Assembly: GCA_022448265.1 (NCBI GenBank)
Contig: JAKVCC010000013.1
Span: forward strand, 73,354-134,855
Direction: 5' to 3'
DNA length: 61,502 nucleotides
Origin: Pirellulales bacterium
Lineage (GTDB): Bacteria; Planctomycetota; Planctomycetia; Pirellulales; Lacipirellulaceae
The position numbers were made by a program, and so were the translations under genes. The notes below the pieces were generated by a model, which saw only the letters and a program-made list of their open reading frames with translations, had not been told where the DNA came from and did no database searches. Position 1 is the stretch's first letter. Every line of letters begins with the position of its first letter. Shown here piece after piece: positions 30,249-46,515 of the stretch.

Positions 30249-31163
30249 TTAAAACGTGACAACTAACAACATCGCCATCCAGGCAGGGAGGTACAGGAGG
30301 GTCGCGCGGAGCAGCATGCGGGCCGACTTTTCGTTGCGATAAATGGCAAAACTCACTGCCAAGCCCAATTGGGCCATCCCCAGAAAAAAAGCCCACACGA
30401 AATAAACGAGCGGACTGCCGCCAGTCGGCATCACCGCAGGAATCAAACTCACGGGAATCAGCAGCAGCGCCCCCATAACCGCCTGAGCACCACACCGCGC
30501 ACCCGACGGATCGACCACCGGTAGCATCTGATGCCCAGCGCGGGCGTAATCGTTACGGTATAGCCAGGCGATCGCCATGAAGTGCGGAAACTGCCACAGG
30601 AACAATACGGCAGCCAAGGCGAAGGCCATCAGATTCATCTCCGCGCCCGTGGCCGTCCATCCCATCAGTATGGGAATCGCGCCCGACACGGCACCCACAA
30701 CCGTATTGAGCGAGGTGCGCTTTTTAAGGGGTGTATAGAGCAAAACATAAATGCCCCAACTCGCCAAACCAAGGGCTGCGGTTAGCAGGTTGACGCGAAG
30801 CACTAGCCAGCTCATTCCGACGGTCAGTGTTAGCGCAGACAGACACAGCGCCTCGGCGCCGGTCACGCGCCGTGTCGGCAATGGGCGATTGGCGGTGCGC
30901 TGCATCTGCGTATCGGCTTCGCGCTCCCACCAACTGTTAGCCAGGCTGGCACTGGCGGCGACTAACGCCGTGCCAAATAGGGCATGCATTACAACCACCG
31001 CGTCCAGTCCATGGGGCATCGCCACACAGGCCGCCACGCCGGCTACAATTAGCTCCAGCGCCACGATGCGGGGCTTGGTCATTTCCAAGTAGTCGGCCAA
31101 GCGTCTGGCAATCGCATGCCCGGACCGGTCCGCAGTCCCCAATGTTTGGATCGATGCGCTCAT
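30249..31163 (-). CDS. ctaB: Heme O synthase (protoheme IX farnesyltransferase)
   Basis: A 304-residue UbiA-family prenyltransferase that adds a farnesyl group to heme B. Markers are LADYLEMTKPRIVALELIVA, the first Asp-rich motif region NSWWEREADTQMQRTANRPLP, YTPLKKRTSLNTVVGAVSGA and WQFPHFMAIAWLYRNDYARAG. About eight helices are present. Its ATG overlaps the ctaA stop as ATGA (31163-31160). The longer open frame upstream to 31484 lies inside ctaA and is rejected. Its product feeds CtaA for heme A. Confidence 0.95.
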   Translation of the reverse strand: MSASIQTLGTADRSGHAIARRLADYLEMTKPRIVALELIVAGVAACVAMPHGLDAVVVMHALFGTALVAASASLANSWWEREADTQMQRTANRPLPTRRVTGAEALCLSALTLTVGMSWLVLRVNLLTAALGLASWGIYVLLYTPLKKRTSLNTVVGAVSGAIPILMGWTATGAEMNLMAFALAAVLFLWQFPHFMAIAWLYRNDYARAGHQMLPVVDPSGARCGAQAVMGALLLIPVSLIPAVMPTGGSPLVYFVWAFFLGMAQLGLAVSFAIYRNEKSARMLLRATLLYLPAWMAMLLVVTF

Positions 31164-32167
31164 GACACGGTCTCTCCCTGGCCAAAACGGACCTGCGGCA
31201 GTTTGGCCAATCCATAATCCAACTGTCGGGCAACGCGCAAGGCAATCACCAGCGATGCCGCCAGGATCAATGACCCGGTCGCAACGTGACTGGTCACAAG
31301 CGCGGCTTGCAGCCCATCGTCTGCATGATTGACGAAGGTCCTTTCGCCCAAGAGCCTGGTGGCCCAACTTGGCATACCATATTTTACGAGCCAGCTCCCC
31401 AAACCAAGACAAATCTGCATCGCCACCAAGGCCAGCAGGGCCAGCCCGGTCACGCGCTGCAACCGATGGCGGAAGCACTTCCACGCCAACAGAAATACGT
31501 ACGCTACGATCAAAGCCGCTAACACCAGATGGAAATAAACGGCCAATTGAAAAACGCCTCCCGCCGACTCATGTGTCATGCGAGGACTATGCCGCAATGC
31601 GGCGCCCACCACCAATTGCAAATAGGCGAGCCCCGTACAAAGCACGGCCAGACGAAAAACTTTTGCGGCGGGCCCCTTTTCCGCAAGAGTCACCCCACTC
31701 TTCCACCAGCGCGAGGTCACCACCACCATCATCACGCAGAGCAAGAAGAACAACGGCCCCGTGCACCCGTGAATCAGGGCCAGCACGCGCTCGTCGAGTA
31801 CCACCCGCATGCCTCCCAAAACTGCCTGCAGGACCACACTGGCCAAAACTAAGAGGCTTAGTTGACGCACCCAGCCGCGTGATTCACACCGCCAGGTAAC
31901 AATCGCTAGCCCAAGCGACAAGAAGCCGGCCAGCGCCCCCAGCAGCCGATGACCATGCTCGACAAATTTGTCGCCCGCCGCGCTCAGCCAGTCATAAAAG
32001 AGAAAAAACGTTCCGTCAGAGGTCAACCAATCGCGAAACGCCATGCCCGCATCGTTCGTGGTTACCAGCCCCCCAACCCAAATGAGCGGGAAGGTGGCGC
32101 AGGCAAGGAGCCAGGCCCAACGGTGGGGCCAAGGGGAAGGACGAATTTTTTCGTTGTTGCGGGTCAC
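31160..32167 (-). CDS. ctaA: Heme A synthase
   Basis: A 335-residue COX15/CtaA-type membrane protein that converts heme O to heme A. An N-terminal helix (WAWLLACATFPLIWVGGLVT) is followed by four-helix bundles carrying conserved His: FVEHGHRLLGALAGFLSLGL, DERVLALIHGCTGPLFFLL, YFHLVLAALIVAYVFLL and ALVTSHVATGSLILAASLV. The start is GTG at 32165-32167, 19 bp after the Cox I stop. Together with ctaB it shows that the oxidase is an A-heme enzyme. Confidence 0.93.
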   Translation of the reverse strand: MTRNNEKIRPSPWPHRWAWLLACATFPLIWVGGLVTTNDAGMAFRDWLTSDGTFFLFYDWLSAAGDKFVEHGHRLLGALAGFLSLGLAIVTWRCESRGWVRQLSLLVLASVVLQAVLGGMRVVLDERVLALIHGCTGPLFFLLCVMMVVVTSRWWKSGVTLAEKGPAAKVFRLAVLCTGLAYLQLVVGAALRHSPRMTHESAGGVFQLAVYFHLVLAALIVAYVFLLAWKCFRHRLQRVTGLALLALVAMQICLGLGSWLVKYGMPSWATRLLGERTFVNHADDGLQAALVTSHVATGSLILAASLVIALRVARQLDYGLAKLPQVRFGQGETVS

Positions 32168-32186: not shown

Positions 32187-33953
32187 TCATTTGGTTTTGT
32201 CGACCGCGGGCGGCGGCATCGTCTGCGGATAATAATCGTCTTCCACCTCCGGCGCCCCATACTCGTAGGGCCCGCGGTGGATGATGGGTTGGAAGTCAAA
32301 ATTGCCGTGGCCCGGCGGGCTGGGGGCCTGCCATTCAAGGCCATTGGAATGCCACGGATTGCGGCCCGCGCGGGGTCCAAAAAAAATGCTGCCTAAGAAG
32401 TTAATCACAAAGATGACCTGCATGCCGACCATCGCAAAGGCGCAGTAGCTAATAAACTGGTTCATCGGCAGCGCATTGCGGAAGGTTTCGTAATGGTACG
32501 GATCGGCAAGCCGCCGCGGAAAGCCCTGCATGCCCAAGATGTGCATCGGGTAGAAAACACAGTTGAGCAATGCAAACGTGACAGCAAAGTGGACCTTGCC
32601 CCAGGAGTCGTTCATCATGCGACCAAACATCTTTGGAAACCAATAGTAGATCGCACCGAACACAGCCATCGCCGTACCAGAGAAAAGTACGTAATGAAAA
32701 TGGGCCACAATGAAGTAGGTGTCATGAATGAAGATGTCGATGGGCGTGGCGGCCATGAAAATACCGCTGAGGCCGCCGATGATAAACATCGAAACGAATG
32801 ACACGGCAAAGAGCATGGGTGTAGTAAACTGGATCTTGCCGCCCCACATCGTACCCAGCCAATTGAAGGTCTTAATCGCACTCGGTAGGGCGATCAGCAT
32901 GGTCGAAACCATGAAGGTCATGCCCAGCATGGGGTTCATGCCCGAGACAAACATATGGTGGCCCCAAACAATGAATCCCAGACCGGCGATACCCGAGATG
33001 GAATAGACCATGGGCTTATATCCGAACAGCGGCTTCCGTGCGAAGCAACTAATTATGTCGGAAACCATACCCATGGCCGGCAAGATCATAATGTAAACGG
33101 CCGGGTGGCTATAAAACCAAAACAAATGTTGCCATAGAAGCGGCTGCCCGCCGCCCGAGGCCATGGGCCGGTTATTTGTCGACCAGCCCTCCGGAATGAA
33201 AAACCCGGTGCCCAGCTTCAAATCGGTTATCTGCATAAAGCTGGCAGCGGTCAGCACCGGCAAGGCAAAGGCCTGTAGTATCGCCGTGATGAACATGGCC
33301 CAAATGGTCATGGGCAAACGAAACATCGTCATGCCGGGAGCCCGCATTTGGATGATCGTAGTCATGTAGTTGACCGATCCCATCATCGACGAGATGCCCA
33401 CCAAGGTAAGCCCCGTTAGCCACAAAAACTGCCCAGTACCCTGGGTAAGCGCAAAGGGTGGATAGGCCGTCCAGCCCCCCTGGGAGGCACCTCCTTCCAC
33501 GAAAAAACTGCCTCCCATGCAAACAAATGCTGGCCACATAAACCAATAGCTCAGCATATTGAGCGTCGGCACGGCCATATCGTCGGCGCCGATCATCAAC
33601 GGAATCAAGAAGTTGCCGAACGCCCCGGTCAACACCGGGATAATGACAAAGAATATCATCACCGTCGCGTGCATGGTGACGAGCATGGTGTAAACTTCGG
33701 GCGCGATCTGGCCACCCTCGGCACCGGCCAACAGGTCGCCCAAAATGGGCATGGGCCGCCAGGGATACGCCAACTGCCAGCGAATGCCAAGCGCCAACAG
33801 ACCGCCGATCAAAAACCAAATCAGCGAACTGAACAAGAACTGCAGTCCGATGATCTTGTGATCGAGCGAGAAGACATAGGTCGATAAAAACCCACCGGCG
33901 TGCCCCGTATGGGCATGGGCATCGGCGTGGGTATCGGCAGTCGCAGTGCTCAT
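32187..33953 (-). CDS. ctaD: Cytochrome c oxidase subunit I, A2 type
   Basis: A 588-residue, twelve-helix catalytic subunit. Heme and CuB ligands are visible: MLVTMHATVMIFF, YSHPAVYIMILP (Tyr281, His283, Tyr287), GHHMFVSGM (CuB His pair), and AHFHYVLFSGTAMAVFGAIYYWF (heme a3 and heme a). The Glu that follows HP in A1 oxidases is Ala here, and the YS pair before HP marks the A2 class, which uses a different proton donor. A His-rich N-terminus precedes helix 1. It lies 161 bp after Cox II. Confidence 0.97.
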   Translation of the reverse strand: MSTATADTHADAHAHTGHAGGFLSTYVFSLDHKIIGLQFLFSSLIWFLIGGLLALGIRWQLAYPWRPMPILGDLLAGAEGGQIAPEVYTMLVTMHATVMIFFVIIPVLTGAFGNFLIPLMIGADDMAVPTLNMLSYWFMWPAFVCMGGSFFVEGGASQGGWTAYPPFALTQGTGQFLWLTGLTLVGISSMMGSVNYMTTIIQMRAPGMTMFRLPMTIWAMFITAILQAFALPVLTAASFMQITDLKLGTGFFIPEGWSTNNRPMASGGGQPLLWQHLFWFYSHPAVYIMILPAMGMVSDIISCFARKPLFGYKPMVYSISGIAGLGFIVWGHHMFVSGMNPMLGMTFMVSTMLIALPSAIKTFNWLGTMWGGKIQFTTPMLFAVSFVSMFIIGGLSGIFMAATPIDIFIHDTYFIVAHFHYVLFSGTAMAVFGAIYYWFPKMFGRMMNDSWGKVHFAVTFALLNCVFYPMHILGMQGFPRRLADPYHYETFRNALPMNQFISYCAFAMVGMQVIFVINFLGSIFFGPRAGRNPWHSNGLEWQAPSPPGHGNFDFQPIIHRGPYEYGAPEVEDDYYPQTMPPPAVDKTK

Positions 33954-34114: not shown

Positions 34115-34894
34115 TCATTCGTCATCATCCTCGGGAACTCCGACGCGCATAGTGTTTTGTTCTTGGCGCATTTCTTCCAGCTTTTCTTCGTACTTGGAAC
34201 GTGGCAAAAAATAGACGCGGCCCTTCATTTTGTAGTGACCCCAGCCACAGAGTTCGGCGCAAACAATGTCGAATCCGCCTACGGCTTTGGCTTTGAACCA
34301 CATGCTTTGGTCCATGCCGGGAATGACGTCCTGCTTGAGACGCAAATTAGGCAGAAAAAAACTGTGCAAAACATCGGCGCTGGTAATCTTCAACAGCACA
34401 TCTTCGTTCACCGGCAAATAAAGCCTTCCATCGGTACGAACGATGTCGTCGATGGTATAAAGCTTATTGTCAGGCCCTGGGTAACGAAAATCCCAGTTAA
34501 ACTGCCGGCCGGTAACTTCCACCAGCGGCGCGATATCAGGCGGCTTCATCTTCGCCCTCGCCCACGCCTCCATTTGGAAAACCGCGATGAATAGCAGCGT
34601 CACCGCGGGTAGAATCGTCCACACCAATTCCAGGGCATGGCTCCCATGAGAATACTTAACCGGCGCGTTATTCGAGTTGGCGTCGTATTTCCAGGAAAAG
34701 TAGAAAAGGGCACCCTCGGTTACAACAAAGACAACTCCCGTGAGTGCCAGGATAAACATAAACAAGTCGTCAATCGTCCGCCCATGCTCGGAAACATCAA
34801 CAGGCAACCAAAGACGCAAGTAGGGCGCAGCCACAAAGGTGGCTACCCCGCCAACGGGCACCAAAAAAAACAGGAAGCTCCAAAAACGTTTCAC
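34115..34894 (-). CDS. coxB: Cytochrome c oxidase subunit II
   Basis: A 259-residue CuA subunit. Three N-terminal hydrophobic segments precede a periplasmic cupredoxin domain with complete CuA ligands: His177 (DVLHSFFLPNLRLKQD) and CAELCGWGHYKM with Cys212, Glu214, Cys216, His220 and Met223. GRQFNWDFRYPGPD is the expected Trp-rich entry loop. No cytochrome c domain is fused, unlike caa3 enzymes, so electrons must come from separate carriers such as the neighbouring cytochromes or cupredoxins. The start is GTG at 34892-34894. Confidence 0.95.
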   Translation of the reverse strand: MKRFWSFLFFLVPVGGVATFVAAPYLRLWLPVDVSEHGRTIDDLFMFILALTGVVFVVTEGALFYFSWKYDANSNNAPVKYSHGSHALELVWTILPAVTLLFIAVFQMEAWARAKMKPPDIAPLVEVTGRQFNWDFRYPGPDNKLYTIDDIVRTDGRLYLPVNEDVLLKITSADVLHSFFLPNLRLKQDVIPGMDQSMWFKAKAVGGFDIVCAELCGWGHYKMKGRVYFLPRSKYEEKLEEMRQEQNTMRVGVPEDDDE

Positions 34895-35014: not shown

Positions 35015-36382
35015 TCATAGGACTTCGTCCACGTTTACCGGCAGGGCCTTAAGCGGCTGGCTAGGAGGCTCATAAGGCAACGACAAAACATAATCGACAA
35101 GATTCCACATTTGAGCCTCGGTCAACGTTCCCTTGGCTCCCGGACTGGCCGGGCCGCTGCCCGGCATCGGTGTGCCGGCAATGCCCGTGAAGACGCGATG
35201 AAAAATATCGATCCGCCGCCTACCACCCCGATAGATACCTTGTCGTAAGTTGCGGGGGATGGCATTGCGAGGCTTGTACAATGTCGCGGCCACTCCCTGC
35301 CAGCGCGCCAATTCAACCCGATCGTTAATAAGCTGCTGCTCAGCTGCTTTGTCCAGCTCTCCGTCGCCCACACGCTTAACGATGGACTCTGATTTGCGAC
35401 CGATCTCGACCAGGAATTCATGGTGGACCTTGTTCCAATTATCGTAATCCGTTTGCTGGCCATCGCCCAGCGCCGTTGGGCCATGGCATTTTTTGCAATC
35501 CGCCTTGCCATAAAAGAGCTTGCGGCCCGCCTCGGCCGAAGCCAAAACTTCTTCCGGCAAGCGATCGTCTCCGGGAATCTGATCCTCGGCCGGCACGATA
35601 ATCTGCTCGTTGGCCGTATTCCAGCCCTCCATAAGCTCTTCCAAATAGCTCAGTATCTCTTCGCGTTGCTCCGGGTAGGTTGCCGGATTGAGAGGCGTGC
35701 GCTGCAACAAGGGTTCGCCTGCTTCGTCCCGGCGCGGTTCGCCGTTTTCGTCGACCACCTCTTCTTCTTCCAACTCGTAAACGACCATGTGCAGGGCGCT
35801 TTCCATTTGGCCACGAATGCTCAAGTACTTAACGTACTCGACCAAGGCTTCGACCTCTGATCCAGGCAACAGGGAAAACGAAGGCATCGCCGTTCCGGGA
35901 ACGCCGTTCATGAGTACACGATGCAAATCGGCATCGGTCGGCCGCGCCGCATTGAGCGTAGACTTGAACTTGTAGACGGCCGGTCGATAGTCGCGAGGAT
36001 AGGGATTGAGAAACCGGGCAGTCGGGCCGCGGCCATCGCCGGTCACGCCGTGGCAGTGAACACAATGTTTGCGGTAGAGGCCAAAATTAGTGCCCTTCTT
36101 ATCACTCCAAGCGGGGCCCGCCGCCATGTCAAGCTTGGCCTGATCAAGCCCCGTTTCGGCCAAAGCGTAGGGCTGGTCTGGGGTACCAAACATAGCGCCC
36201 AGCACGTCGGAAATTTCCTGCGAGTATTCGGGGGGTGTTTCTCGCACCACCGCCTCGACCATATTAAGCCGGAACGCGGGAGGCTCCGCCGTATCACAGC
36301 CGGCCGCGAGCACTACGGCAAGGACACACAGACCTTGCAGCTTGGTAAACGCTTCCAGCTTGTTAAGTGTAGGGTAGTTCAT
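35015..36382 (-). CDS. Diheme cytochrome c lipoprotein
   Basis: A 455-residue exported protein with a lipobox (VLAAGC, Cys29) and two class I-type heme sites: CVHCH at residue 107, with a following PGTAMPSF Met-ligand loop, and CKKCH at residue 296, with AGTPMPGSGP near the end. The two domains are joined by an acidic helical linker (YELEEEEVVDENGEP). It lies between the cupredoxin-like genes and Cox II. Inference: a membrane-tethered electron shuttle from the bc complex to CuA, replacing the heme domain missing from Cox II. Confidence 0.9.
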   Translation of the reverse strand: MNYPTLNKLEAFTKLQGLCVLAVVLAAGCDTAEPPAFRLNMVEAVVRETPPEYSQEISDVLGAMFGTPDQPYALAETGLDQAKLDMAAGPAWSDKKGTNFGLYRKHCVHCHGVTGDGRGPTARFLNPYPRDYRPAVYKFKSTLNAARPTDADLHRVLMNGVPGTAMPSFSLLPGSEVEALVEYVKYLSIRGQMESALHMVVYELEEEEVVDENGEPRRDEAGEPLLQRTPLNPATYPEQREEILSYLEELMEGWNTANEQIIVPAEDQIPGDDRLPEEVLASAEAGRKLFYGKADCKKCHGPTALGDGQQTDYDNWNKVHHEFLVEIGRKSESIVKRVGDGELDKAAEQQLINDRVELARWQGVAATLYKPRNAIPRNLRQGIYRGGRRRIDIFHRVFTGIAGTPMPGSGPASPGAKGTLTEAQMWNLVDYVLSLPYEPPSQPLKALPVNVDEVL

Positions 36383-36411: not shown

Positions 36412-37359
36412 TTAGCCGCCCAGGGCGGAGGCAGGAACCGTCAGATTAAGTACCTTCTCTTCATTTTCTTCTAGCCGAATCTTGAATCGCCCTTTTCTCG
36501 ACCACTTGAGCGATTTGGCCTCGGGGGTCTCCAATACCAAAGGTCCGCCGTCACGGGCTCCCACACTTTCGTGCCAAACCTGAAACTCCAAGACTTCGCC
36601 AGCCGGCACGTTCGCAATTTCAAACGAACCGTCAGCGCCCGTAACCGCGTGGTACCCATTGGCACGTGGCAGGAAGTAGGCCGCCATCCACGGGTGAATA
36701 CTGCACGCCACACTCACTGGCACCGGCTCCTCTTTCTGCGGGGAAAACACAAGGGTCTCGTTCGCGGGAACACTTTGATTGAAAACGTTCTTTCGACCTT
36801 CGATTTTTGTATTGTGGCCCATGGGATCACTATTCTTGATCTCTAGCGTTTGGCCCACCGTCATGGCCGCCACATGGGTAAGAAAGACGCACTCCTTTTG
36901 ATCAAACACGATCGATTCATCGTTAGGTTGGGCTGATTCGTGCACACGCGCCGCGTCGCGGATAAAAATCACGACGTTGGCAATTCCCATGGTTTCTGGA
37001 TCAACCAATAACGTCTCCTGAAGCGGAGCCTTACCGGCGCGGGAGCACTTGGCTCGATCCTCACCTCGAACATCGTAGGGTTTCATCTGGGGCGGGGTGC
37101 CGTCGTACACAAATTGGCCCCTGAGCGTTGCCCAACCGGTTCCGGTTGCGATTGCCGCCCCGTCACTGGCCAACGCGTCCGCACCGCTGGAAAACGCCTG
37201 GCGAATCTCGGCAACTGACGCCGGTTCGGCCACCGGTCCTAGCTCTTCGGCGCGCTGGCAACCGGTCACCATCAAGAAACACACGACTGACAGAAACGCA
37301 GCCGATAATCGGCAACGGACCAAAAGCCCCGAACAGGTTAGGATAATATGTGTATTCAT
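36412..37359 (-). CDS. Cupredoxin-like lipoprotein with carboxypeptidase-regulatory-like domain
   Basis: A 315-residue lipoprotein (lipobox VTGC, Cys34). It has a cupredoxin-like fold whose copper-ligand pattern can be read directly: His182 in MGHNTKIE and CSIHPWM with Cys219, His222 and Met225. The C-x2-H-x2-M spacing is that of amicyanin/pseudoazurin-type blue copper sites. A small beta sandwich follows (GSFEIANVPAGEVLEFQVWH). The ATG at 37357-37359 is preferred to a TTG at 37387-37389. It is a paralogue of the next gene and lies in the operon between cytochrome c genes. Related proteins are sometimes annotated as methylamine-utilisation-like. Inference: an electron carrier or copper-binding subunit. 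Confidence 0.75.
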   Translation of the reverse strand: MNTHIILTCSGLLVRCRLSAAFLSVVCFLMVTGCQRAEELGPVAEPASVAEIRQAFSSGADALASDGAAIATGTGWATLRGQFVYDGTPPQMKPYDVRGEDRAKCSRAGKAPLQETLLVDPETMGIANVVIFIRDAARVHESAQPNDESIVFDQKECVFLTHVAAMTVGQTLEIKNSDPMGHNTKIEGRKNVFNQSVPANETLVFSPQKEEPVPVSVACSIHPWMAAYFLPRANGYHAVTGADGSFEIANVPAGEVLEFQVWHESVGARDGGPLVLETPEAKSLKWSRKGRFKIRLEENEEKVLNLTVPASALGG

Positions 37360-37385
37360 ATTTATTGGGCAGGAAGGTCCTAAGA

Positions 37386-38174
37386 TCAAAGCCTTAAGGC
37401 CGATGCGGATACTTTGATTTCACCTAGGTCCAATGTCTTTCCAGCGGCAATGTCCAACTTGACCCGACCCTTCCTGTCGGTTTCCTTCTTACCGACGGCC
37501 ATGCCGCGCATGCCCGCGGGGTCATGCCAAAAAATAAACTCGTGTGGTCCAGCAGGAATATCTTTGATCTCAAAATTCCCCCTGGCATCCGAGACAGCCA
37601 TGTACGGGTTGTCGCGGATGAGTACAAATGCTTTCATCCAGGTATGGATATTGCAAGCTGCGGGGGCTGGGAACGACTCCCTTTTTTGGAACATCCTCGT
37701 CTCCGGTTTACCGTTGACAACCATTTGATTGAACGGCGGGTTGGAAAACAATGTTTGTAAATTCGTATTATGCCCAACACCCATATCGGAATTTCGGATC
37801 TCAAAAGGCTGCCCCGTACGTACCAGGAGCGCGCGCGGGTGAAACCGGCACCCCTTGTTATCCAGCACGACCGGCTTGTCGCTAGGCTCTGCCAGATCCG
37901 GATGCACAGCAACCGTTTTGCCTTTTTTCAGGTACAAATAGACAAACGCATTGGCCAAGCCCCTTTCTTCCCCTACCACCAGTGTTTCATCAACCAGCTC
38001 GTTCTTCGAACAAAACTCGGTGTCCGGAGCAATATTCTGAATCGACTTGGACTCTGGCGGCGTGCCATCGAATACCAGCTGGCCTTTGAGGGAACCCCAT
38101 TCCGCAGCGCCTGCGCACAACGGCATTACAGATGTTACCAGCACCGCCATCCAAAGGCTCAACACGTGTCTCAT
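37386..38174 (-). CDS. Cupredoxin-like periplasmic protein
   Basis: A 262-residue exported protein (signal peptide SLWMAVLVTSVMPLCAGAA). It is paralogous to its downstream neighbour: both start WGSLKGQLVFDGTPP or WATLRGQFVYDGTPP. The blue-copper-like ligands are His135 (VGHNTNLQ) and CNIHTWM with Cys174, His177 and Met180. A C-terminal beta domain (GNFEIKDIPAGPHEFIFWHD) follows. An AGGAAAG ribosome-binding site precedes the ATG. Extra conserved Cys (55 and 109) may form a disulfide. Placed directly after the octaheme cytochrome gene, it could move electrons between the bc complex and the oxidase. Confidence 0.75.
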   Translation of the reverse strand: MRHVLSLWMAVLVTSVMPLCAGAAEWGSLKGQLVFDGTPPESKSIQNIAPDTEFCSKNELVDETLVVGEERGLANAFVYLYLKKGKTVAVHPDLAEPSDKPVVLDNKGCRFHPRALLVRTGQPFEIRNSDMGVGHNTNLQTLFSNPPFNQMVVNGKPETRMFQKRESFPAPAACNIHTWMKAFVLIRDNPYMAVSDARGNFEIKDIPAGPHEFIFWHDPAGMRGMAVGKKETDRKGRVKLDIAAGKTLDLGEIKVSASALRL

Positions 38175-38240: not shown

Positions 38241-41200
38241 TCATCTCTGAGAAGACTCGGCGTCCGTCGCTGCGGATGTATTGGGATCACTGTTCGCGGC
38301 GGATTCTTCCACCAGCGGCGTAATGGGCGTCTGCCGACGCGCGTAGGTGTCAAAATTCATCAGCAGATCGACTAAGCCATCCAATTGTTCGATACTCGTG
38401 CCGCGGAATAACTCCTCGGCAATACCCGACGCGCCCGGCTTGTAAGGAATATTCACGGGCATGCCAGTGTAGGGCAAAATGCGTTTCGGGTTGGCCACCC
38501 ACTTGCGCAAGTACTCCGGCCTAAGCCGCCGATGGACGTCGGCTAAATTCGGGCCAAAGGTAGTCGGATCGCCATTGGGCTCAAAGTCTTCTACTGCGTG
38601 GCATTTTACGCAGTAGTTCGGATTGACGACAATATTCATGCCCTCCTGCATGCGATCCGGATATCCGGATTCTTGCTCCGCCAGATAACTGGCCCTTTGC
38701 CGCGACTTATACTCGTAGGGAAACTCGGAATCAGAAACAGCGGCAAAGTAATTCACCAATTTCGCAGCATCTTCCGTTGACATGTGAAAGTGAGGCATGC
38801 GCATAATTGCGGCCGGGCGAATCGGGACCGGGTCCATCAGAAAACCGTGCAACCAGTCCGTTTGCACTTTCTCGCCTTCCGCCATGAGTGGGGGCGGCAA
38901 CCAACCCCAGGCCTCTGCACCTTTCGCCTGCGGATTGGTCCGCTGCGTCTCAGCAATCACACGCGGGAATAGGTAACGCGTCAATTTACCGCCCCATGCA
39001 GGGTGGGCCTTGCCGACCGCGGGGCCGTAACGGTCACGGGCAGCGGGCACCAGCAAGTCCTGCATCCCCACCAGCCACGCTTGACCATCCACCAGACTAT
39101 CTTTCCACAATTTAAACCGATAATAAGGATCGGACTCGTCGTCGTCCGCCTCCAGCGGCGTCGCTTCATCATCGACCCGTTGGGCCAGACCGGTCTCCTG
39201 GCTCATCAATGGCTGCCCGTGAAGACTTACGTGCATGAGGCCACGCGCATCAGTTCTCTTAGAGGCTGCAGTTTCCTTGTCCGAGAATGATCTACCCAAG
39301 AAGGGAAAATCGACCACTGTCGAAGGCGTGTCGAACTGACCCTCCTCATAGGCAATGTCCCACCGCTCCATCCGAAGCGTGTGGCACCCGCCACAATTAA
39401 ACTTTTCGAGGACATGCGCCCCTTCCACAATGGCCTGCTGCCGCGCATCGGGACGATAAACATACTTTTCCGCCGGCGCTTCGTTGGCTAGGCCCAGCAC
39501 AAAGGTAATGATCGCTTCGCGCTCCTCCGGGCTCAAGGGAAACTTGGGCATGCGCAGCCGCTCATTGTATCCTTTATTTTGGGTCGTCTTGTAATCGTAG
39601 CTGCGCGGCATACGAAGTTTTTGCCAGATAAATCCGTCGCGGGAATGTGAGTTGAGCGACTGGATGTAGTAGCTGGTATCCGAATCGAAATCAGCCGGGT
39701 CGAGATGGCCATGCTCAACATGCGCATTATGAACATCGTCTCCGCCTACATGGGCCTGAAGGCCGGGATTACCCGCGCCTTCCAAGAACTTGTGCATATT
39801 CTCAAACGCCAGCTTAGATGAGTCCTTGCGCCCCCATTCCGCCAAAGCCGTGCCGATGGGCTTGGCGTCTTCAAACCCTGGTATGTCGTGGCAGCCGAAA
39901 CAGCCGTACTTGCTAATCGTGCGGCGGGCCACGTACTGACTCAGACGCTGTGTCCGATTGACATTGCTCAGTCCGATCAGGATTTTTTCGTCCGCCTTTA
40001 GTTTGGGTTCCAGGTGCGATGGGATTCCATTGCCATGAATAAAACTCTCCGCGCGGGCCGACGGAATGGCGTCGCTAGTAAGCCATTCCTGGGCCAGATC
40101 GGCCAGGTCTTTTTCCTGGCTAGGCGTCCACTCGCGCTCGTGATTAGGAACGATCCAATCCGTTTTTGCGGCTAACAAGAACGCGGTGATGTCGGCCGCC
40201 GGATCGGTAAATCGGCCTGTTGGCTTGCCGGTTTCATCTTTTTCTTCAATGGGGTCGAGAAATAACTCCGGCATTTTGGTCCGCACGTGATAACGGTGCG
40301 GCTGTTTGACCCAAGAATAAAGCCACAGTGCACCATTGGTGTTATCAAGTTTTTTGCTAATGCGCGACAAGTCGGGCCCCTGGTCAGCGGCAATGCCCGG
40401 GAAGCTGCTGTGCGAGTGGCAGGCCAAGCAGCCGCGCGATTCGAACTGCCACTTACCCCGTTCGGCCGATGGCTTCTCCGTCACTGTTTCCGGCGGCGAC
40501 AGATAACTAAAATCGCTGCTGGCGGCGAGTAAAAACTCTGTCAGGGCGCGAATCTCGACTGGCTCAAACTTTTTGGCAGTTTCGAGTTCGTCATTGTCTT
40601 CGGAATCCAGCAAATGCTCGTGCAAGTTGAAAAATTGTGGCATCCGCGTCGAAGGCCGGAAGTTGGCCGGCTCCTCAATCCAACTATAGAGCCAGTCGAA
40701 GTCGACTTTCGATCCCAAGAAGCGGAGGCTCGGCCCTACCTTGCGATACGATCCCGGCGCTTCTACGTCTTTGAGCGAGACCGCTAGTTCATGAGTGCCC
40801 GCGCTCAAGCTCGCCGTGGCGCCCGCCTCGCCCCGCTTGGCCAACTCGGCATCTTTCAGAATCGCGACGGCCAGTTCCCTGCGGGCTCGATCGTCGCCCG
40901 GCGTCTGAACCAGCGTCTCAGCTACGGTGCGCTGCTGGGCCGAAAGTCCGCCATCGCGAAGTATCTGCTGGGCAACTTCGCTGTAGTTGGGTGCGAGCCG
41001 GATGTCGGGCCCGGTGCGAGAATCGGGACCATCGAAGCCTCCAATTTCGTGGCAGCCGAAGCAGCCATACTTTTCGACCAGCGTCCAGCCTTGCACCAGT
41101 TTCGGCGCGGGAGTATCCGGGAAGCGATCGCTGGCCTCCAATGCCCCTTTATCGAAATGGCACTTGAGACAGTTGCTCTCCGCGAAGCGCGCGGCCTTCA

Positions 41201-42854
41201 TCGGAAAAATCCAATGGTGATTATCAAACCAACCGTGCTCGCGAGTCCACTTGAGCTGCTGCTCGGCGTTGTCGGGCGTGTGCGAAGTCCAGGGGAACTC
41301 GGTTCCGCTCCCCTGCCCATCATGGCAAATCGTACAGCCAACCACTTTTTCGGGGTGGGGACTAGAATCCGTCAGGTAAAGGTCGAGCCGCGGATGTGAC
41401 GTAAACGGGTGATCAAAGCCACGGCGAATCGACAGCGAGGCCGCCCGCCCCCAATCAGACCGATTGAGCAGATACTCCGCGACCGTTTCGCGATCGTAAA
41501 CAGGCTGGTCACCGGCCAGGCGAATGACGTCGCCCGACTCAAGCCCGGCCTTCGCTGCGGCACTCTCGGGCAACACATAATGAACCGTCACGTCGGCGGA
41601 GTCCATTACCCCTTCATCTGCCAAATTCAAGCCGTAAACCGCCGGCAAATCCTCTGGAGAAGCACTCTCTAATTCCGGCGGAGCGCCGGGTGTGGCTAAC
41701 TCAATCACCAGGTCGCGATGGTGCGCAGGCAGAGTTGGATAGGCTGGCTCTGTAGCTGTGCCTGCGGCGGTTTGCGAAATGGCTTGATGGCAACTCTTGC
41801 AGCGATCGAAGCGCGCCACTTGCGAAAAATTATAATTGATTGTCATGTCGGGCAGCCAGATCTGATCGATCCGCACGTTGCCATCGTAGAGCGCATTGAG
41901 TACGGGCCACCGGGTGACCCACTCGCCGACATTCCAGGTATTCTTGCTCGCAACATCGTCCAGTCGGGCTAATTCGGTGGAGATGGCCTGGCGCTGCTTA
42001 GTGACCTTATTCTTGGCAGCGTCGATTCGGCCGATAATCGATTCCAAGTCCATGCGATACGTCTTGGCAAATCCGATCTGACCCGTAAGTTCTGTAATCT
42101 GGTCGGAATAACTCTGAATCCGTGCTTGCAACGCCTCAATCACTCCTTGGTCTGCCCCCTCGCCGACCTTCAGGCCCTTTTCGCTCACTGCAGCGGTGCG
42201 GTCGGCACTGACAAACTTCCGCCGACCGACAAGCTGCTTCTCACGTCGCTTTGCTTCCCGAACGAACCTGGAAAATTCGCCCATCAAGACTTTTCGTGCG
42301 GCGAGCGCTGCCTGCCGATTGGTCACCAGCGCAGCTTTTAGCACGGTGTCCACCCGTTTATGCGTTGTGTCGCCCGAAGCTTTCTCCGCTGCGCCCGCCA
42401 TGGCCTGATCTACCACCGCGCCCACTTGGTTGATTTCGCCGCGCGCTACTCGGGCCGCATCAGCGTATTGGCCATACGCGGCAAACTCAGCGTCGAGCTT
42501 TGCAAAATTGCCAGCCTTCTCTTCCCTGCCCGCCTCCGCCAGCCGTGCATCCTCGCTCGTTACTAGGTTCTTGAACTGTGTGACGTGCTCCTCAGCAATC
42601 GATTCGATGGCAATCCCTTGCAGCTCGCCGTCAAATGCTTCCATCTCAGCGGCAAACTGGGTACTCAGCTTTTCGCGGCGGGCCCGAGTCATCCAGGCTT
42701 CCTTTTTCCGATCTTCAAGCTGCCAATCTTTCCACTCGCGATTGTGATCGCTGGCCATCATCCACAGCGTAGAAATCACCATCACCAGCGCAGACGCACC
42801 AAAGACGACGTGCATCACTTTTTGATTGCGCCAGGTTTGTTCAGTTGCGGGCAT
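38241..42854 (-). CDS. Giant octaheme cytochrome c with PDZ domain
   Basis: A 1537-residue protein. One N-terminal membrane helix (residues 14-33) is followed by about 300 residues of Glu/Lys/Ala-rich helix, probably coiled coil. Eight CxxCH heme sites follow, at Cys352, 507, 562, 598, 809, 985, 1154 and 1415. A PDZ-like domain lies between the first two (about 385-485; ESAAAKAGLESGDVIRLAGD). Met-ligand loops recur (STRMPQF, RTKMPELF, RLRMPKF, IMRMPHF, YTGMPVN). The frame is unbroken. It sits next to the split cytochrome b genes, where simple bc or b6f operons carry cytochrome c1 or f. Inference: a huge heme c subunit of the bc complex that wires it to the oxidase. Confidence 0.9.
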   Translation of the reverse strand: MPATEQTWRNQKVMHVVFGASALVMVISTLWMMASDHNREWKDWQLEDRKKEAWMTRARREKLSTQFAAEMEAFDGELQGIAIESIAEEHVTQFKNLVTSEDARLAEAGREEKAGNFAKLDAEFAAYGQYADAARVARGEINQVGAVVDQAMAGAAEKASGDTTHKRVDTVLKAALVTNRQAALAARKVLMGEFSRFVREAKRREKQLVGRRKFVSADRTAAVSEKGLKVGEGADQGVIEALQARIQSYSDQITELTGQIGFAKTYRMDLESIIGRIDAAKNKVTKQRQAISTELARLDDVASKNTWNVGEWVTRWPVLNALYDGNVRIDQIWLPDMTINYNFSQVARFDRCKSCHQAISQTAAGTATEPAYPTLPAHHRDLVIELATPGAPPELESASPEDLPAVYGLNLADEGVMDSADVTVHYVLPESAAAKAGLESGDVIRLAGDQPVYDRETVAEYLLNRSDWGRAASLSIRRGFDHPFTSHPRLDLYLTDSSPHPEKVVGCTICHDGQGSGTEFPWTSHTPDNAEQQLKWTREHGWFDNHHWIFPMKAARFAESNCLKCHFDKGALEASDRFPDTPAPKLVQGWTLVEKYGCFGCHEIGGFDGPDSRTGPDIRLAPNYSEVAQQILRDGGLSAQQRTVAETLVQTPGDDRARRELAVAILKDAELAKRGEAGATASLSAGTHELAVSLKDVEAPGSYRKVGPSLRFLGSKVDFDWLYSWIEEPANFRPSTRMPQFFNLHEHLLDSEDNDELETAKKFEPVEIRALTEFLLAASSDFSYLSPPETVTEKPSAERGKWQFESRGCLACHSHSSFPGIAADQGPDLSRISKKLDNTNGALWLYSWVKQPHRYHVRTKMPELFLDPIEEKDETGKPTGRFTDPAADITAFLLAAKTDWIVPNHEREWTPSQEKDLADLAQEWLTSDAIPSARAESFIHGNGIPSHLEPKLKADEKILIGLSNVNRTQRLSQYVARRTISKYGCFGCHDIPGFEDAKPIGTALAEWGRKDSSKLAFENMHKFLEGAGNPGLQAHVGGDDVHNAHVEHGHLDPADFDSDTSYYIQSLNSHSRDGFIWQKLRMPRSYDYKTTQNKGYNERLRMPKFPLSPEEREAIITFVLGLANEAPAEKYVYRPDARQQAIVEGAHVLEKFNCGGCHTLRMERWDIAYEEGQFDTPSTVVDFPFLGRSFSDKETAASKRTDARGLMHVSLHGQPLMSQETGLAQRVDDEATPLEADDDESDPYYRFKLWKDSLVDGQAWLVGMQDLLVPAARDRYGPAVGKAHPAWGGKLTRYLFPRVIAETQRTNPQAKGAEAWGWLPPPLMAEGEKVQTDWLHGFLMDPVPIRPAAIMRMPHFHMSTEDAAKLVNYFAAVSDSEFPYEYKSRQRASYLAEQESGYPDRMQEGMNIVVNPNYCVKCHAVEDFEPNGDPTTFGPNLADVHRRLRPEYLRKWVANPKRILPYTGMPVNIPYKPGASGIAEELFRGTSIEQLDGLVDLLMNFDTYARRQTPITPLVEESAANSDPNTSAATDAESSQR

Positions 42855-42919: not shown

Positions 42920-44326
42920 TCAAAAATTGAAAAAATATTCCGGGATTGCGATCAAATACTTGAGGTTGAAAACCCAACGGAGGACCATTTTTATGGGCAG
43001 GGCCGCCATAAAAAGGAGCAGGTTGGCCATTACCATAAAACGGATGAATCCCATGCGGCTGTAAAACTTGCGAAACACCGTGAGCGCCATGACCGGCGGC
43101 AGTGCGATAAAGTAACCCAGCACCAGCAAGGTTCCAGGCAGCTCACGACCAAACAGAAGTCCCAAAAACTGGCCGAACGGCCGCAGCAGAACCGGCCAAT
43201 TCTCCAGGGCAGGCGTCCCGGGCAGGGACATATTAAACAATTTGTTCCAGATCGCTTCTGAAAGATTCACATTGTTTAGCGCTTCGACCTTGTGCGCATC
43301 CCAGTACTCATAGGGACCAAAGAAATTCCAATTCGGCCCTCGCAGCAGTGTGCCCAACACGATCAGCGTCACCCACATTTCCAGAAAACCAAACTGAAAT
43401 ACCGCATAGCTGAACTTGCGATCCTTGATCGTGTAGTAGCCATTTCCCTTTTTGTTGAAGTCGATATAGGGAATCGCCATGAGCCCCGCGACGATCAAAC
43501 TAGGCAGCACCACGCCGGCCATCCAGGGATCGTAATAAACGAGCATCTCCTGTAGGCCCAAAAAGTACCAAGGCGCCTTGGAGGGATTGGGAGTCTTGAC
43601 ACTACTGGCCGGCTCTTCAAGGGGAGCCTGGAGCGCAATCGCCCAAAAGATAAGAAAAGCCGTCAACGCAATCATGCAAATCAGCTCGGTGTAGACCAGG
43701 TCGGGCCACACCAGCACTTTTTCGTCGTTGACTTTTTCCCGGGGCGGCTCACCCCGCTCGGCACGGCGGTCGTTCTCCACAGCCTGCGACGTACCCAACC
43801 AGGTAAAGAACGCCAACAGGAACACCAGCATCACAATGGGCACATTGTCAGGCTTGGCGACGATTTCATAGAAATCGCGATCGGTCATCGACAAACCCAA
43901 AAACAGCCACATCAGGTTCCATATCCACCATGCAACAGCCGGCCGAACGAAGAAGGAACGGAAGAAGTACAGCACGATCAGGCCCAATGTCGTGCCGACA
44001 CTGTAAATAACCGGCCCTGTGCTTTTATTGATCGTTTCGCGCCACAGCGAGGGCAACGAGAGCGCCGCAACCGCCGATCCAGCTGACCATGCCAGGGCAC
44101 CCAGAATGGCAAATACGGTCGCAACCAGCAGCCAGATCTGCGCGTTGGTGATCTGAATCTTCTTGCCCACAAGGGGGAGGGGAACGCTGAACCAACCTCG
44201 CGTCTGGCCGGTGCGCCAAATGTAGAGTGCGGCCAGCCCGTTCATCACCGCCAGCGCAACATAAAACGGCCCCAAAAAAGAGGCGACCATTTCGTAAAAC
44301 TGTGCGTCGGTCAGTCCGTGCGTCAT
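42920..44326 (-). CDS. Cytochrome b C-terminal (subunit IV type) with extra helices
   Basis: A 468-residue polytopic protein. The middle part matches the C-terminal half of cytochrome b: the quinol-site loop reads NPSKAPWYFLGLQEMLVYYDPW, where most bc1/b6f enzymes have PEWY. Then comes VVLPSLIVAGLMAIPYID. The first ~190 residues add about four helices, and the C-terminus adds two or three more, making it nearly three times the size of b6f subunit IV (about 160 residues). It follows the cytochrome b6 gene after a 126-bp spacer with a strong hairpin and precedes the octaheme gene. Confidence 0.85.
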   Translation of the reverse strand: MTHGLTDAQFYEMVASFLGPFYVALAVMNGLAALYIWRTGQTRGWFSVPLPLVGKKIQITNAQIWLLVATVFAILGALAWSAGSAVAALSLPSLWRETINKSTGPVIYSVGTTLGLIVLYFFRSFFVRPAVAWWIWNLMWLFLGLSMTDRDFYEIVAKPDNVPIVMLVFLLAFFTWLGTSQAVENDRRAERGEPPREKVNDEKVLVWPDLVYTELICMIALTAFLIFWAIALQAPLEEPASSVKTPNPSKAPWYFLGLQEMLVYYDPWMAGVVLPSLIVAGLMAIPYIDFNKKGNGYYTIKDRKFSYAVFQFGFLEMWVTLIVLGTLLRGPNWNFFGPYEYWDAHKVEALNNVNLSEAIWNKLFNMSLPGTPALENWPVLLRPFGQFLGLLFGRELPGTLLVLGYFIALPPVMALTVFRKFYSRMGFIRFMVMANLLLFMAALPIKMVLRWVFNLKYLIAIPEYFFNF

Positions 44327-44452: not shown

Positions 44453-45229
44453 CTACAGCGGTCCGCTAATGCCACCGTCCTTTCTTACCCGCCAAAAGTG
44501 GATTGCCAGGAGCAAAGCCACTGCAAGTGGGATGGCAATACAATGCAAAATATAAAAACGATTGAGCGTTTCTTCGCCTACTTCGCGCGCACCTAAAAGC
44601 GCAAAGCGGGCGTCCGACGCGTTGGTAATCATGTCCACACCGCCGAGGGTAAGCAATTGCTGACCGGGACCCTCGTGTCCCAAGAAAGGTGTTGCACGGG
44701 CCATATTCGAACCTACCGTGATGGCCCAAACGGCCAACTGATCCCACGGCAACAAATAACCGGTGAACGATAAAAGGAGGGTCAGCAACAGCAAAAACAC
44801 TCCCACAACCCAGTTAAACTCGCGAGGCGGCTTGTAGCTCCCGGTGAGGAAAACACGGTACATGTGCAGCCACACCGTTATGACCATCGCATGAGCGCCC
44901 CAGCGATGGATCTCGCGCATGATTCCCAACGAATGAACATCTCGCAGCATTTGAATATCGGTATAAGCCCACTCCACCGTCGGCCGGTAATAAAACATCA
45001 GCAGCACGCCGGTGACAGTCTCGACCAGAAACAGAAAAAACGTGACCCCCCCCATACACCAAGTATACGAAAGAGCGATGCCCTGCTTCTTGATCGACAC
45101 CGGATGCAAGTGCAGGAAAAAGTTGGTCAGCATCACCACAATACGATTGCGGCGATCAACCGGCATGGGATGCCGGAAGACGCTTTTCCAGATCTGAGAT
45201 TCGCGAACGATGTCGCTGAGTGAGGGCAT
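44453..45229 (-). CDS. Cytochrome b6-type subunit
   Basis: A 258-residue, four-helix cytochrome b N-terminal half. The two b-heme pairs are His108/His229 and His122/His244, with 14- and 15-residue spacings as in b6. Cys58 in TWCMGG aligns with the Cys that covalently binds heme c-n in cytochrome b6. [20 protein letters not shown] and GISGPL at the C-terminus are also b6-like. It is the second gene of the bc operon, 257 bp after the Rieske gene. The split b6/IV arrangement matches b6f-type complexes rather than fused bc1. Confidence 0.95.
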
Positions 45230-45486: not shown

Positions 45487-46515
45487 TCATACGGGTATGT
45501 AGCAGGCCGCGTCCTCCCACTGGCCCATCTCTTCCTGAAACGTGCGGCTCTTGTCAATTTCTATCTGGCCATCGTCGGCAATTCGGATGGCACACCGCTC
45601 CAGGGGCCGCGGCGCGGGGCCCTCAAAGTTGATCCCGTCCTTGTAAAAACCACTACCATGACAGGGACATTTGAACTTTTGCTCAGCCTCCAACCAACTG
45701 GGCGTGCAACCCAGATGGGTACAAACCGACTTGAGTGCGTAAAGTTGCCGCTGGCCGTTGTACTCAGCGTTCGAAATCCAAACCCCGAACTGAGCCTTGA
45801 ATTTTGTCTGTACCTGCCCGGCAGGAAAGGAGTCGGGAAACCCGACTTTGAACTTACTGGGCGGCTCGCGACGCACGTTGGGAAACATAAACTTCAGCGT
45901 CGCAAATGCCCACAGCGCCGACACGGCCCCCAGCGACCAGAAGCCGATGCCCAGAAACGTACGCCGCTCTTCGTCCGCGGCGCCCTTTGCCTTGGCCTTA
46001 GGCACTGAGGGCTGCAACCGCGCATAGGCCGGCTTTTCCGGCAAGGGTGGCACAACAATCTTTTTCGCCTTGGCGGCAGGGTCAGCCTTCGACTTTGCCG
46101 CGGCCTCGGCCTTACTCATGGGGCCGGCCTTCGACGCCTTGCGTGCAGCGGCGAGAATGCTTGCAGTGTCCCGCGGCTCGGCGCTAGTTGCGGCCACAGT
46201 TTTTTTTGCCGCCGGCTTGGCAGCATCTTTCCCAGAGGAGGACTTTCCAGGCGAGGGTTTCTTCTCAGCTGGCACTGCACCGCCCGACTTTTCTGCGCGG
46301 GCCATCGCCAACATCTCAGCCACCGACGGACGGCCTCCCGAGGCCGACTTCGCTGGCACGGGTTTCGCCGGGGCCGACTCGGCCGCGGGGGTGGAATCCA
46401 CTGGAGGCGGATCTGCCGGCGCAGCGTCAGTCGAGTCGGGCGTCTGGCTACCTCCATCGGCTTTTCGAGCCGCTGCCAGCATCTCTTCGACCGACATCCT
46501 TTTCTTATCAGCCAT
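45487..46515 (-). CDS. Rieske iron-sulfur protein with long repeated N-terminal extension
   Basis: A 342-residue protein. The C-terminal 130 residues are a standard Rieske domain: CTHLGC (Cys265, His267, disulfide Cys270) and CPCHGSG (Cys283, disulfide Cys285, His286), with GPAPRPLERCAI after it. One membrane helix spans about 188-210. The first 185 residues are Ala/Pro/Lys/Ser-rich and carry three copies of an ML/IL-AxAR motif (at about 7-22, 63-78 and 116-131), predicted to be cytoplasmic and flexible. It is the first gene of the bc operon. Confidence 0.93.
   Translation of the reverse strand: MADKKRMSVEEMLAAARKADGGSQTPDSTDAAPADPPPVDSTPAAESAPAKPVPAKSASGGRPSVAEMLAMARAEKSGGAVPAEKKPSPGKSSSGKDAAKPAAKKTVAATSAEPRDTASILAAARKASKAGPMSKAEAAAKSKADPAAKAKKIVVPPLPEKPAYARLQPSVPKAKAKGAADEERRTFLGIGFWSLGAVSALWAFATLKFMFPNVRREPPSKFKVGFPDSFPAGQVQTKFKAQFGVWISNAEYNGQRQLYALKSVCTHLGCTPSWLEAEQKFKCPCHGSGFYKDGINFEGPAPRPLERCAIRIADDGQIEIDKSRTFQEEMGQWEDAACYIPV

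Follow-up and report, generated by a model that had tools for sequence, protein, structure and literature searches.

A predicted octaheme cytochrome c in the place of cytochrome f in a planctomycete Rieske/cytochrome b operon

The DNA analyzed here is a stretch of 61,502 nucleotides (the window) from a Pirellulales bacterium of the Lacipirellulaceae (GenBank assembly GCA_022448265.1, contig JAKVCC010000013.1, positions 73,354 to 134,855). It carries a co-directional gene cluster on the minus strand in the order Rieske protein, cytochrome b, subunit IV, octaheme cytochrome c, two cupredoxins, diheme cytochrome c, cox2, cox1, ctaA-like, ctaB-like, and cox3, with gaps from the Rieske gene on of 257, 126, 65, 66, -4, 29, 120, 161, and 19 bp. 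The octaheme protein (P0001) is very probably the membrane-anchored c subunit of a b6f-like Rieske/cytochrome b complex, in which it would replace cytochrome f and, in this lineage, would send electrons to an aa3-type oxidase. A preliminary description of the sequence, which named no strand, had noted a 1537-residue protein with eight CxxCH sites (Cys352 to Cys1415), a single N-terminal membrane helix, and a PDZ-like domain between hemes 1 and 2, and had placed it at the cytochrome c1/f position of a bc operon. That observation is confirmed, and it is larger than first thought. The features of the gene are as follows (ORF, open reading frame).

38241..42854, minus strand: octaheme cytochrome c P0001, 1537 aa (ORF call and CXXCH count; homology to the octaheme of anammox locus L063)
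42750..42821, minus strand: N-terminal membrane helix, residues 12-35 (hydropathy 2.06, the sole such stretch in P0001)
41925..42746, minus strand: proline-free N-terminal arm, residues 37-310 (0 Pro in 274 residues)
41787..41801, minus strand: heme 1 site C352KSCH (CXXCH scan)
41409..41645, minus strand: PDZ domain, residues ~404-482, between hemes 1 and 2 (Pfam and model)
41322..41336, minus strand: heme 2 site C507TICH (CXXCH scan)
41157..41171, minus strand: heme 3 site C562LKCH (CXXCH scan)
41049..41063, minus strand: heme 4 site C598FGCH, proposed ligand M738 (CXXCH scan and conservation)
40416..40430, minus strand: heme 5 site C809LACH, proposed ligand M861, SoxX-like domain (CXXCH scan, conservation, and model)
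39888..39902, minus strand: heme 6 site C985FGCH, proposed ligand M1102 (CXXCH scan and conservation)
39381..39395, minus strand: heme 7 site C1154GGCH, proposed ligand M1353 (CXXCH scan and conservation)
38598..38612, minus strand: heme 8 site C1415VKCH, proposed ligand M1465 (CXXCH scan and conservation)

P0001 has exactly eight CXXCH sites (C352, 507, 562, 598, 809, 985, 1154, and 1415), whereas 2000 shuffles gave 0.004 on average and never more than 1. Only one hydrophobic stretch, residues 12-35, qualifies as a membrane helix. The stretch that corresponds to the ~300 residues of probable coiled coil noted initially is residues 37-310, proline-free and 54% A/E/K/R/L/Q; this composition fits long helices, and the stretch probably forms a helical arm. 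An AlphaFold2 (AF2) model of residues 338-1537, built from 62 sequences, had a mean predicted local distance difference test score (pLDDT) of 86.5 and a predicted template modeling score (pTM) of 0.83. Its heme 5 domain (model residues 445-561) aligned to SoxX with a Z score of 12.1 (96 residues, 2.0 Å), and a Foldseek search with the whole model listed PDZ and SoxX chains, a listing from which the absence of other folds carries no meaning. Local family matches were to FixO at residues 704-760 and to a SoxX model at 1415-1474; CcoO/FixO and SoxX each match one heme domain of P0001 but belong to other enzymes. The cytochrome f family was absent from the P0001 family matches up to an expectation value (E) of 0.1. 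PF14537 had no match in the source genome, and P0001 scanned alone scored 23.1 bits, under the cutoff of 25.

Homologues were taken from three locus sets: 40 picked through the octaheme, 80 named ones (the top 80 among 516 relatives), and 40 picked through cytochrome b alone. By title, the named set comprises 79 planctomycetes or a Kuenenia-labelled bin (L138) and one “Nealsonbacteria” (L144). The cytochrome b set derives from the strongest places listed, with E down to ~1e-93, from which 40 regions were picked by hand across families and some places at contig edges were skipped. The alignment comprises 136 sequences, each with exactly eight CXXCH sites (39, 66, and 30 from the respective sets, together with the window protein), and starts 40 residues before heme 1, so that the N-terminal arm and any ORF that is split or has seven hemes fall outside it.

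Three histidines outside CXXCH motifs (H487, H500, and H525) and four methionines (M738, M861, M1102, and M1353) were kept in 136/136 of these homologues and M1465 in 134/136, followed by M552 (119/136) and H546 (98/136) as the next-best conserved. A separate 40-sequence alignment agreed, except for H500 and H525 (over 90% and invariant). The candidate second ligands, three His and five Met, are thus as many as the eight hemes, with one Met after each of hemes 4 to 8, in order, and the three His around heme 2. Hemes 1 to 3 are predicted to be bis-His and hemes 4 to 8 His/Met, and no open catalytic heme is expected because every heme has a candidate second ligand. At least five xMP loops had been proposed initially as possible Met ligands; P0001 has six, of which five are conserved (134 to 136 of 136) and the sixth, at M1082, lies outside the residues common to >60% of sequences. 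Identity with octaheme_Shew (tetrathionate reductase family) was rejected, as TIGR04315 scored 12.9 bits where its cutoff is 375, and conserved candidate second ligands are available for all eight hemes.

The remaining genes of the cluster are listed below in the order of transcription.

45487..46515, minus strand: Rieske [2Fe-2S] protein P0004 (Pfam Rieske 7.8e-09; solved relative 9rk3)
44453..45229, minus strand: b6-type cytochrome b P0003 (Pfam Cytochrome_B 4.7e-39)
42920..44326, minus strand: enlarged subunit IV P0002, 468 aa (Pfam Cytochrom_B_C 21.7 bits, cutoff 20.7)
37386..38174, minus strand: cupredoxin protein 1, P0007 (ligand set H135, C174, H177, M180; model)
36412..37389, minus strand: cupredoxin protein 2, P0006 (ligand set H192, C229, H232, M235)
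35015..36382, minus strand: diheme cytochrome c P0005 (Pfam Cytochrom_C 1.1e-18, two stretches)
34115..34894, minus strand: cytochrome c oxidase subunit II (TIGR02866 above cutoff)
32187..33953, minus strand: cytochrome c oxidase subunit I (Pfam COX1 1.4e-146)
31160-32167, minus strand: ctaA-like gene (COX15-CtaA 4.2e-12)
30249-31484, minus strand: ctaB/UbiA-like gene (UbiA 7.9e-48)
29074-30195, minus strand: cox3 (Pfam 1.1e-14)

The Rieske protein, b6-type cytochrome b, and subunit IV precede the octaheme gene, and the cytochrome c1/f position assigned to it initially is supported. As in b6f complexes, cytochrome b and subunit IV are split, the Rieske protein is separate, two His pairs are present (H108, H122, H229, and H244 of P0003, kept in 133/133), and the heme cn cysteine (C58) is found in 124/133. 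The HLHP motif of P0003 (H40/H42) is invariant in 133/133 planctomycete cytochromes b. Canonical bc/b6f complexes have PEWY at the Qo motif. P0002 differs from b6f in carrying KAPWY within KAPWYFLGLQE (residues 250-260), in which K250, P252, W253, and Y254 were found in 145/145 sequences and E260, a few residues past the replaced PEWY glutamate, in 143/145. The other difference from b6f is the octaheme protein in place of cytochrome f. P0004 is extended at its N terminus by an Ala/Lys/Pro-rich segment and carries a C-terminal tail, ...EEMGQWEDAACYIPV. The C-terminal extension of the Rieske protein (~EExGQWxDPxS[FY]V) is conserved, including in the anammox protein Kustd1480, and its end is nearly fixed in PDZ-bearing Pirellulales.

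Downstream of the octaheme, P0007 and P0006 are predicted type 1 copper cupredoxins, with fold evidence for P0007 alone. The H-C-H-M ligands were kept in 166 to 174 of 175 sequences pooled from the P0007 and P0006 set. The P0007 model (pLDDT 93.2) had a best cupredoxin Z score of 11.1, with plastocyanin and amicyanin at ~9-10; P0006 had no Pfam match. P0005 has candidate Met ligands at both hemes (M166 and M406, 68/68) and is a probable lipoprotein, judging from a lipobox-like Cys29 in 65/68. The CuA ligands of cox2 (H177, C212, E214, C216, H220, and M223) were complete in 64/64. No NAD(P) oxidoreductase ORF lies between the Rieske and cox genes of the window, and there is no other c-type gene between subunit IV and the cupredoxins. 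In the source genome (3.64 Mb, 97% complete), the window cox1 finds only itself, although a distant oxidase type could be missed. Alternative complex III was rejected, with no match to NrfD (PF03916) in that genome at E <= 0.001. A second, distant Rieske/cytochrome b pair is present on contig C34 (~129424-130217).

The best solved relative of the window Rieske protein is the crystal structure 9rk3 (E 3.1e-39), identified as Kustd1480 by Hauser et al. (PMC12954380). The Rieske protein of locus L063 is identical to 9rk3 at 117/117 residues, and L063 was taken as the Kustd1480-1485 locus from this identity, its gene order, and the position of His62. Its genes run Rieske, cytochrome b, a 566-residue oxidoreductase of pyridine-nucleotide and iron-sulfur type (Pyr_redox_2 2.1e-39), subunit IV, and a 948-residue octaheme (L063:7813-10659) that is homologous to P0001 (E 2e-69). 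P0001 is thus, by homology and gene order, the predicted orthologue of Kustd1485, the anammox octaheme subunit. The two systems share an octaheme with eight CXXCH sites and a common order of the genes for Rieske protein, cytochrome b, and subunit IV. L063, however, has an NAD(P) oxidoreductase gene where the window operon has none, and the window adds cupredoxins, a diheme cytochrome c, an aa3 oxidase, and the PDZ insertion; its octaheme (1537 versus 948 residues) and subunit IV (468 versus 277) are also longer. H40 of P0003 corresponds to Kustd1481 His62, residue 62 being where HLHP begins in L063; since similar motifs are present in other bacterial cytochromes b, the H40 match is a hint only. 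His62 is described as the proposed ligand of an extra heme b in PMC12954380.

The principle of an octaheme replacing cytochrome f is already in print for anammox bacteria. According to PMC12954380, the role of cytochrome f is taken in anammox by a cytochrome with six or eight hemes, and the AlphaFold3 (AF3) model given there places Kustd1485 in the complex, with its long helices around the Rieske protein and halfway round the complex. It also reports, citing de Almeida et al. 2016, that all subunits comigrate in the Kuste4569-4574 complex. That complex resembles the present one in its b6-type cytochrome b, subunit IV, Rieske protein, and multiheme c replacing cytochrome f (PMC12954380), but Kuste4569-4574-like loci (L194 and L198) have 6-heme and 8-heme ORFs unmatched by the window octaheme. 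In searches of an open-access library, an octaheme complex of this kind was found only for anammox and without PDZ, and its commonness in the phylum, the ligand plan of three His and five Met, and the three PDZ sites described below were not seen there; earlier mention elsewhere is possible.

In the proposed mechanism, quinol would be oxidized at cytochrome b and subunit IV, and the Rieske center would pass electrons to a heme near the membrane. Electrons would then run along a fixed row, through bis-His hemes 1 to 3 and His/Met hemes 4 to 8, and in this lineage may leave via the type 1 copper proteins and then the diheme protein to CuA of the aa3-type oxidase. We infer the order Rieske, octaheme, cupredoxin, diheme c, and CuA from gene order and cofactor type. 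The pairing of His with hemes, the direction of flow, and the presence of the octaheme in the physical complex are likewise what we infer. The row may instead serve as a charge store, buffering electrons when the oxidase is slow, rather than as a wire. Eight hemes far exceed the needs of one-electron transfer, and Hauser et al. (PMC12954380) likewise describe the need for so many c-type hemes as not entirely clear; nevertheless, we consider a charge store unlikely and favor the wire.

Gene order and heme count were surveyed across planctomycetes. The octaheme and cytochrome b genes counted as adjacent when they shared a strand and lay no more than 3.5 kb apart, and hemes were counted in ORFs longer than 600 residues that have at least four CXXCH sites. 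The preliminary description would have been refuted had octaheme homologues never been next to cytochrome b; the survey showed the opposite. The octaheme adjoined cytochrome b in 34/40 octaheme-chosen loci, in 65/80 named loci (many of them on short contigs), and in 32/40 cytochrome b-chosen loci, and it adjoined the Rieske gene in 36/40 octaheme-chosen and 31/40 cytochrome b-chosen loci. Among the 15 misses of the named set, 14 had no cytochrome b match in the available stretch, many on short contigs. ORFs uncut by a contig end had exactly eight CXXCH sites in 39/39, 60/64, and 30/31 cases; the uncut ORFs with fewer were L120, L142, and L146 (all three split into two frames), L155 (seven), and L197 (six). 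Cupredoxin genes were nearby in 32/40 octaheme-chosen, 63/80 named, and 19/40 cytochrome b-chosen loci. One locus, L196, has two cytochromes b, one of them without an octaheme.

Among 292 planctomycete genomes, 185 had an octaheme match at E <= 0.001, an upper bound because weak cytochrome matches are included, and 190 had a cytochrome b match, ~55 of them weak by hand count (E above 1e-60). With strong matches defined as E < 1e-50 for the octaheme and E < 1e-60 for cytochrome b, a hand tally of 36 further genomes from the same order or class gave 18 strong for both and 18 for neither. The octaheme complex is common but patchy in Planctomycetota. For Phycisphaerales, PMC11266412 describes alternative complex III and the lack of bc1.

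Several observations weigh against this reading of P0001. Conservation of the CXXCH sites in the 136-sequence set is by construction, given the eight-CXXCH filter. Six of the 40 octaheme-chosen loci lack an adjoining cytochrome b: in L059 and L068 the neighbors of the octaheme are a cupredoxin, a large ORF, and a number of further multiheme cytochromes, and a different electron chain perhaps reuses it; L069, L070, and L077 have a Rieske gene but no cytochrome b beside the octaheme; and in L057 cytochrome b is on the opposite strand. Eight of the 40 cytochrome b-chosen loci have no full octaheme alongside, with an octaheme piece at the contig end in L174, an octaheme ~10 kb away with a Rieske gene in L185, a hexaheme/HAO-like arrangement in L194 and L198, and no octaheme in L170, L181, L193, and L195. 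Genomes without a match number 107/292 for the octaheme and 102/292 for cytochrome b, and five of 10 genomes of the same order (G107, G177, G217, G246, and G250) have no strong match to either, as though the complex were acquired or discarded in one piece. Furthermore, cox1 was near the octaheme in only 17/40 octaheme-chosen, 37/80 named, and 6/40 cytochrome b-chosen loci.

A reading of the octaheme as an independent periplasmic electron hub or reductase, merely cotranscribed with the bc genes and no subunit of the complex, would suit the loci in which the octaheme occurs without cytochrome b among other cytochromes (L059 and L068) or with a Rieske gene ~10 kb from cytochrome b (L185). This reading is very unlikely in view of the adjacency of the octaheme to both cytochrome b and Rieske genes, its shared presence or absence with cytochrome b in 36/36 genomes of the order or class (hand tally), a candidate second ligand for every heme, and the lack of another c-type gene between subunit IV and the cupredoxins of the window. 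From sequence and gene order, the role of the octaheme in a predicted bc complex is well supported.

The preliminary description had also proposed that the protein is a wire linking the complex to the aa3 oxidase. For this lineage the proposal is plausible, with cox genes downstream in the operon, cupredoxins and diheme cytochrome c between, and a single cox1 found. As a general role of the octaheme it was rejected because of the scarcity of nearby cox1 (17/40 and 6/40 loci) and because the anammox orthologue in L063 had no cox match beside it.

The PDZ domain first recognized between hemes 1 and 2 is borne out by both profile and modeled fold. Pfam PDZ_2 matched residues 417-479 with 27.8 bits against a cutoff of 27 (32.2 bits for the segment alone), pLDDT in this region of the AF2 model was mostly 86-94, and the best alignment to PDZ structures had a Z score of 11.7 (84 residues, 1.9 Å). 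A PDZ domain inside a cytochrome c has precedent in MamP and MamE, which combine PDZ and c-type heme domains in one protein (PMC3971196) but are magnetosome proteins with magnetochrome domains and no bc complex. Among the 136 homologues, PDZ lies between hemes 1 and 2 in 56, between hemes 5 and 6 in six (L047, L048, L049, L052, L053, and L054), and between hemes 6 and 7 in one (L050), the last seven all being relatives of the same class; it was not found with the profiles built here in 73 and is therefore an addition to the electron transfer core. Pfam gave a PDZ match in all seven other-site loci, with the cutoff reached by L047, L048, L049, and L050. Long gaps between hemes 1 and 2 matched PDZ in 55/60 scanned segments, and gap length as a proxy for PDZ was rejected, since L159, L161, L167, and L183 carry other insertions.

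Parsimony on a FastTree phylogeny of the octaheme (749 columns) gave six changes of PDZ state: the heme 1-2 state was gained once with three losses (clade support 0.80, some inner nodes 0.38-0.41), the heme 5-6 state arose once inside PDZ-less relatives (enclosing node 0.99, the group itself 0.54), and the heme 6-7 state arose once. L144, labelled “Nealsonbacteria,” groups inside the PDZ clade and is probably mis-binned. Since the sites are three different interheme intervals, there were three or more insertions of PDZ, unless the domain moved. The domain is a lineage-specific module outside the redox core, probably for docking, and its insertion into a single respiratory cytochrome at three positions suggests that docking was needed repeatedly. 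The preliminary description had suggested docking to the C terminus of another subunit; any subunit named in that role is a putative partner.

The partner may be a periplasmic protease or assembly factor recruited by PDZ, or misfolded termini bound by it, in either case serving biogenesis of the complex. Weak sequence matches of the domain to HtrA/DegP/RseP-type PDZ domains and the sub-cutoff parvulin-like match of L051 at another insertion site point in this direction; PDZ_2, however, is a broad family whose match is uninformative on the partner, and we regard this role as somewhat unlikely. The L051 match lies in a heme 6-7 insertion (L051:9623-10420) and is to Rotamase_2, a parvulin-type prolyl isomerase family (E 0.0012).

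Alternatively, PDZ could clamp the C terminus of the Rieske protein of its own operon, holding or guiding the mobile Rieske head. Rieske proteins ended in -[SC][FY][VIYFL]x[VA]-COOH in 39/43 loci with a heme 1-2 PDZ (L121 and L095 placed in this class by hand from gap length; both were among the segments scanned with Pfam, which were counted in total) versus 12/73 others, a pattern chosen after inspection of the tails and a contrast of approximately one clade versus the rest, so that no Fisher p-value is drawn from it and the tail serves as a lead. The pattern resembles a class II PDZ ligand. In addition, the Rieske protein of L125, which lacks PDZ inside the heme 1-2 PDZ clade, ends in Gly. 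Conversely, only 1/7 of the other-site PDZ loci match the tail, L046 has PDZ without such a tail, and 11/66 PDZ-less loci have the tail, and a Rieske clamp is quite unlikely. It is very unlikely that the whole of a broader scheme holds, in which many Planctomycetota would have a distinct class of complex whose fixed octaheme arm, in place of a monoheme subunit, accepts electrons from the Rieske center, lineages would have added PDZ separately at different points to hold the C terminus of a partner, and in Pirellulales the Rieske tail would be that partner, so that PDZ would tether or time the swing of the Rieske head and with it bifurcation.

A c-type subunit is among the features that define bc complexes, and in textbook examples it has a single heme; a large part of Planctomycetota, cultured species included, has instead a subunit with eight hemes and a fixed plan of three His and five Met candidate ligands. 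Kustd1485, an apparent oddity, thereby moves from a specialty of nitrogen metabolism to a widespread planctomycete trait. Because the octaheme arm is kept in cytochrome c oxidase operons that have no NAD(P) oxidoreductase, it cannot serve solely NAD(P)H formation or nitrite chemistry, and the same would hold for the proposed extra-heme-b histidine (H40), since it is invariant also in operons without the oxidoreductase. The operon is carried by the cultured species Lacipirellula limnantheis (L134) and Adhaeretor mobilis (L082), in which the complex could be tested without anammox reactors.

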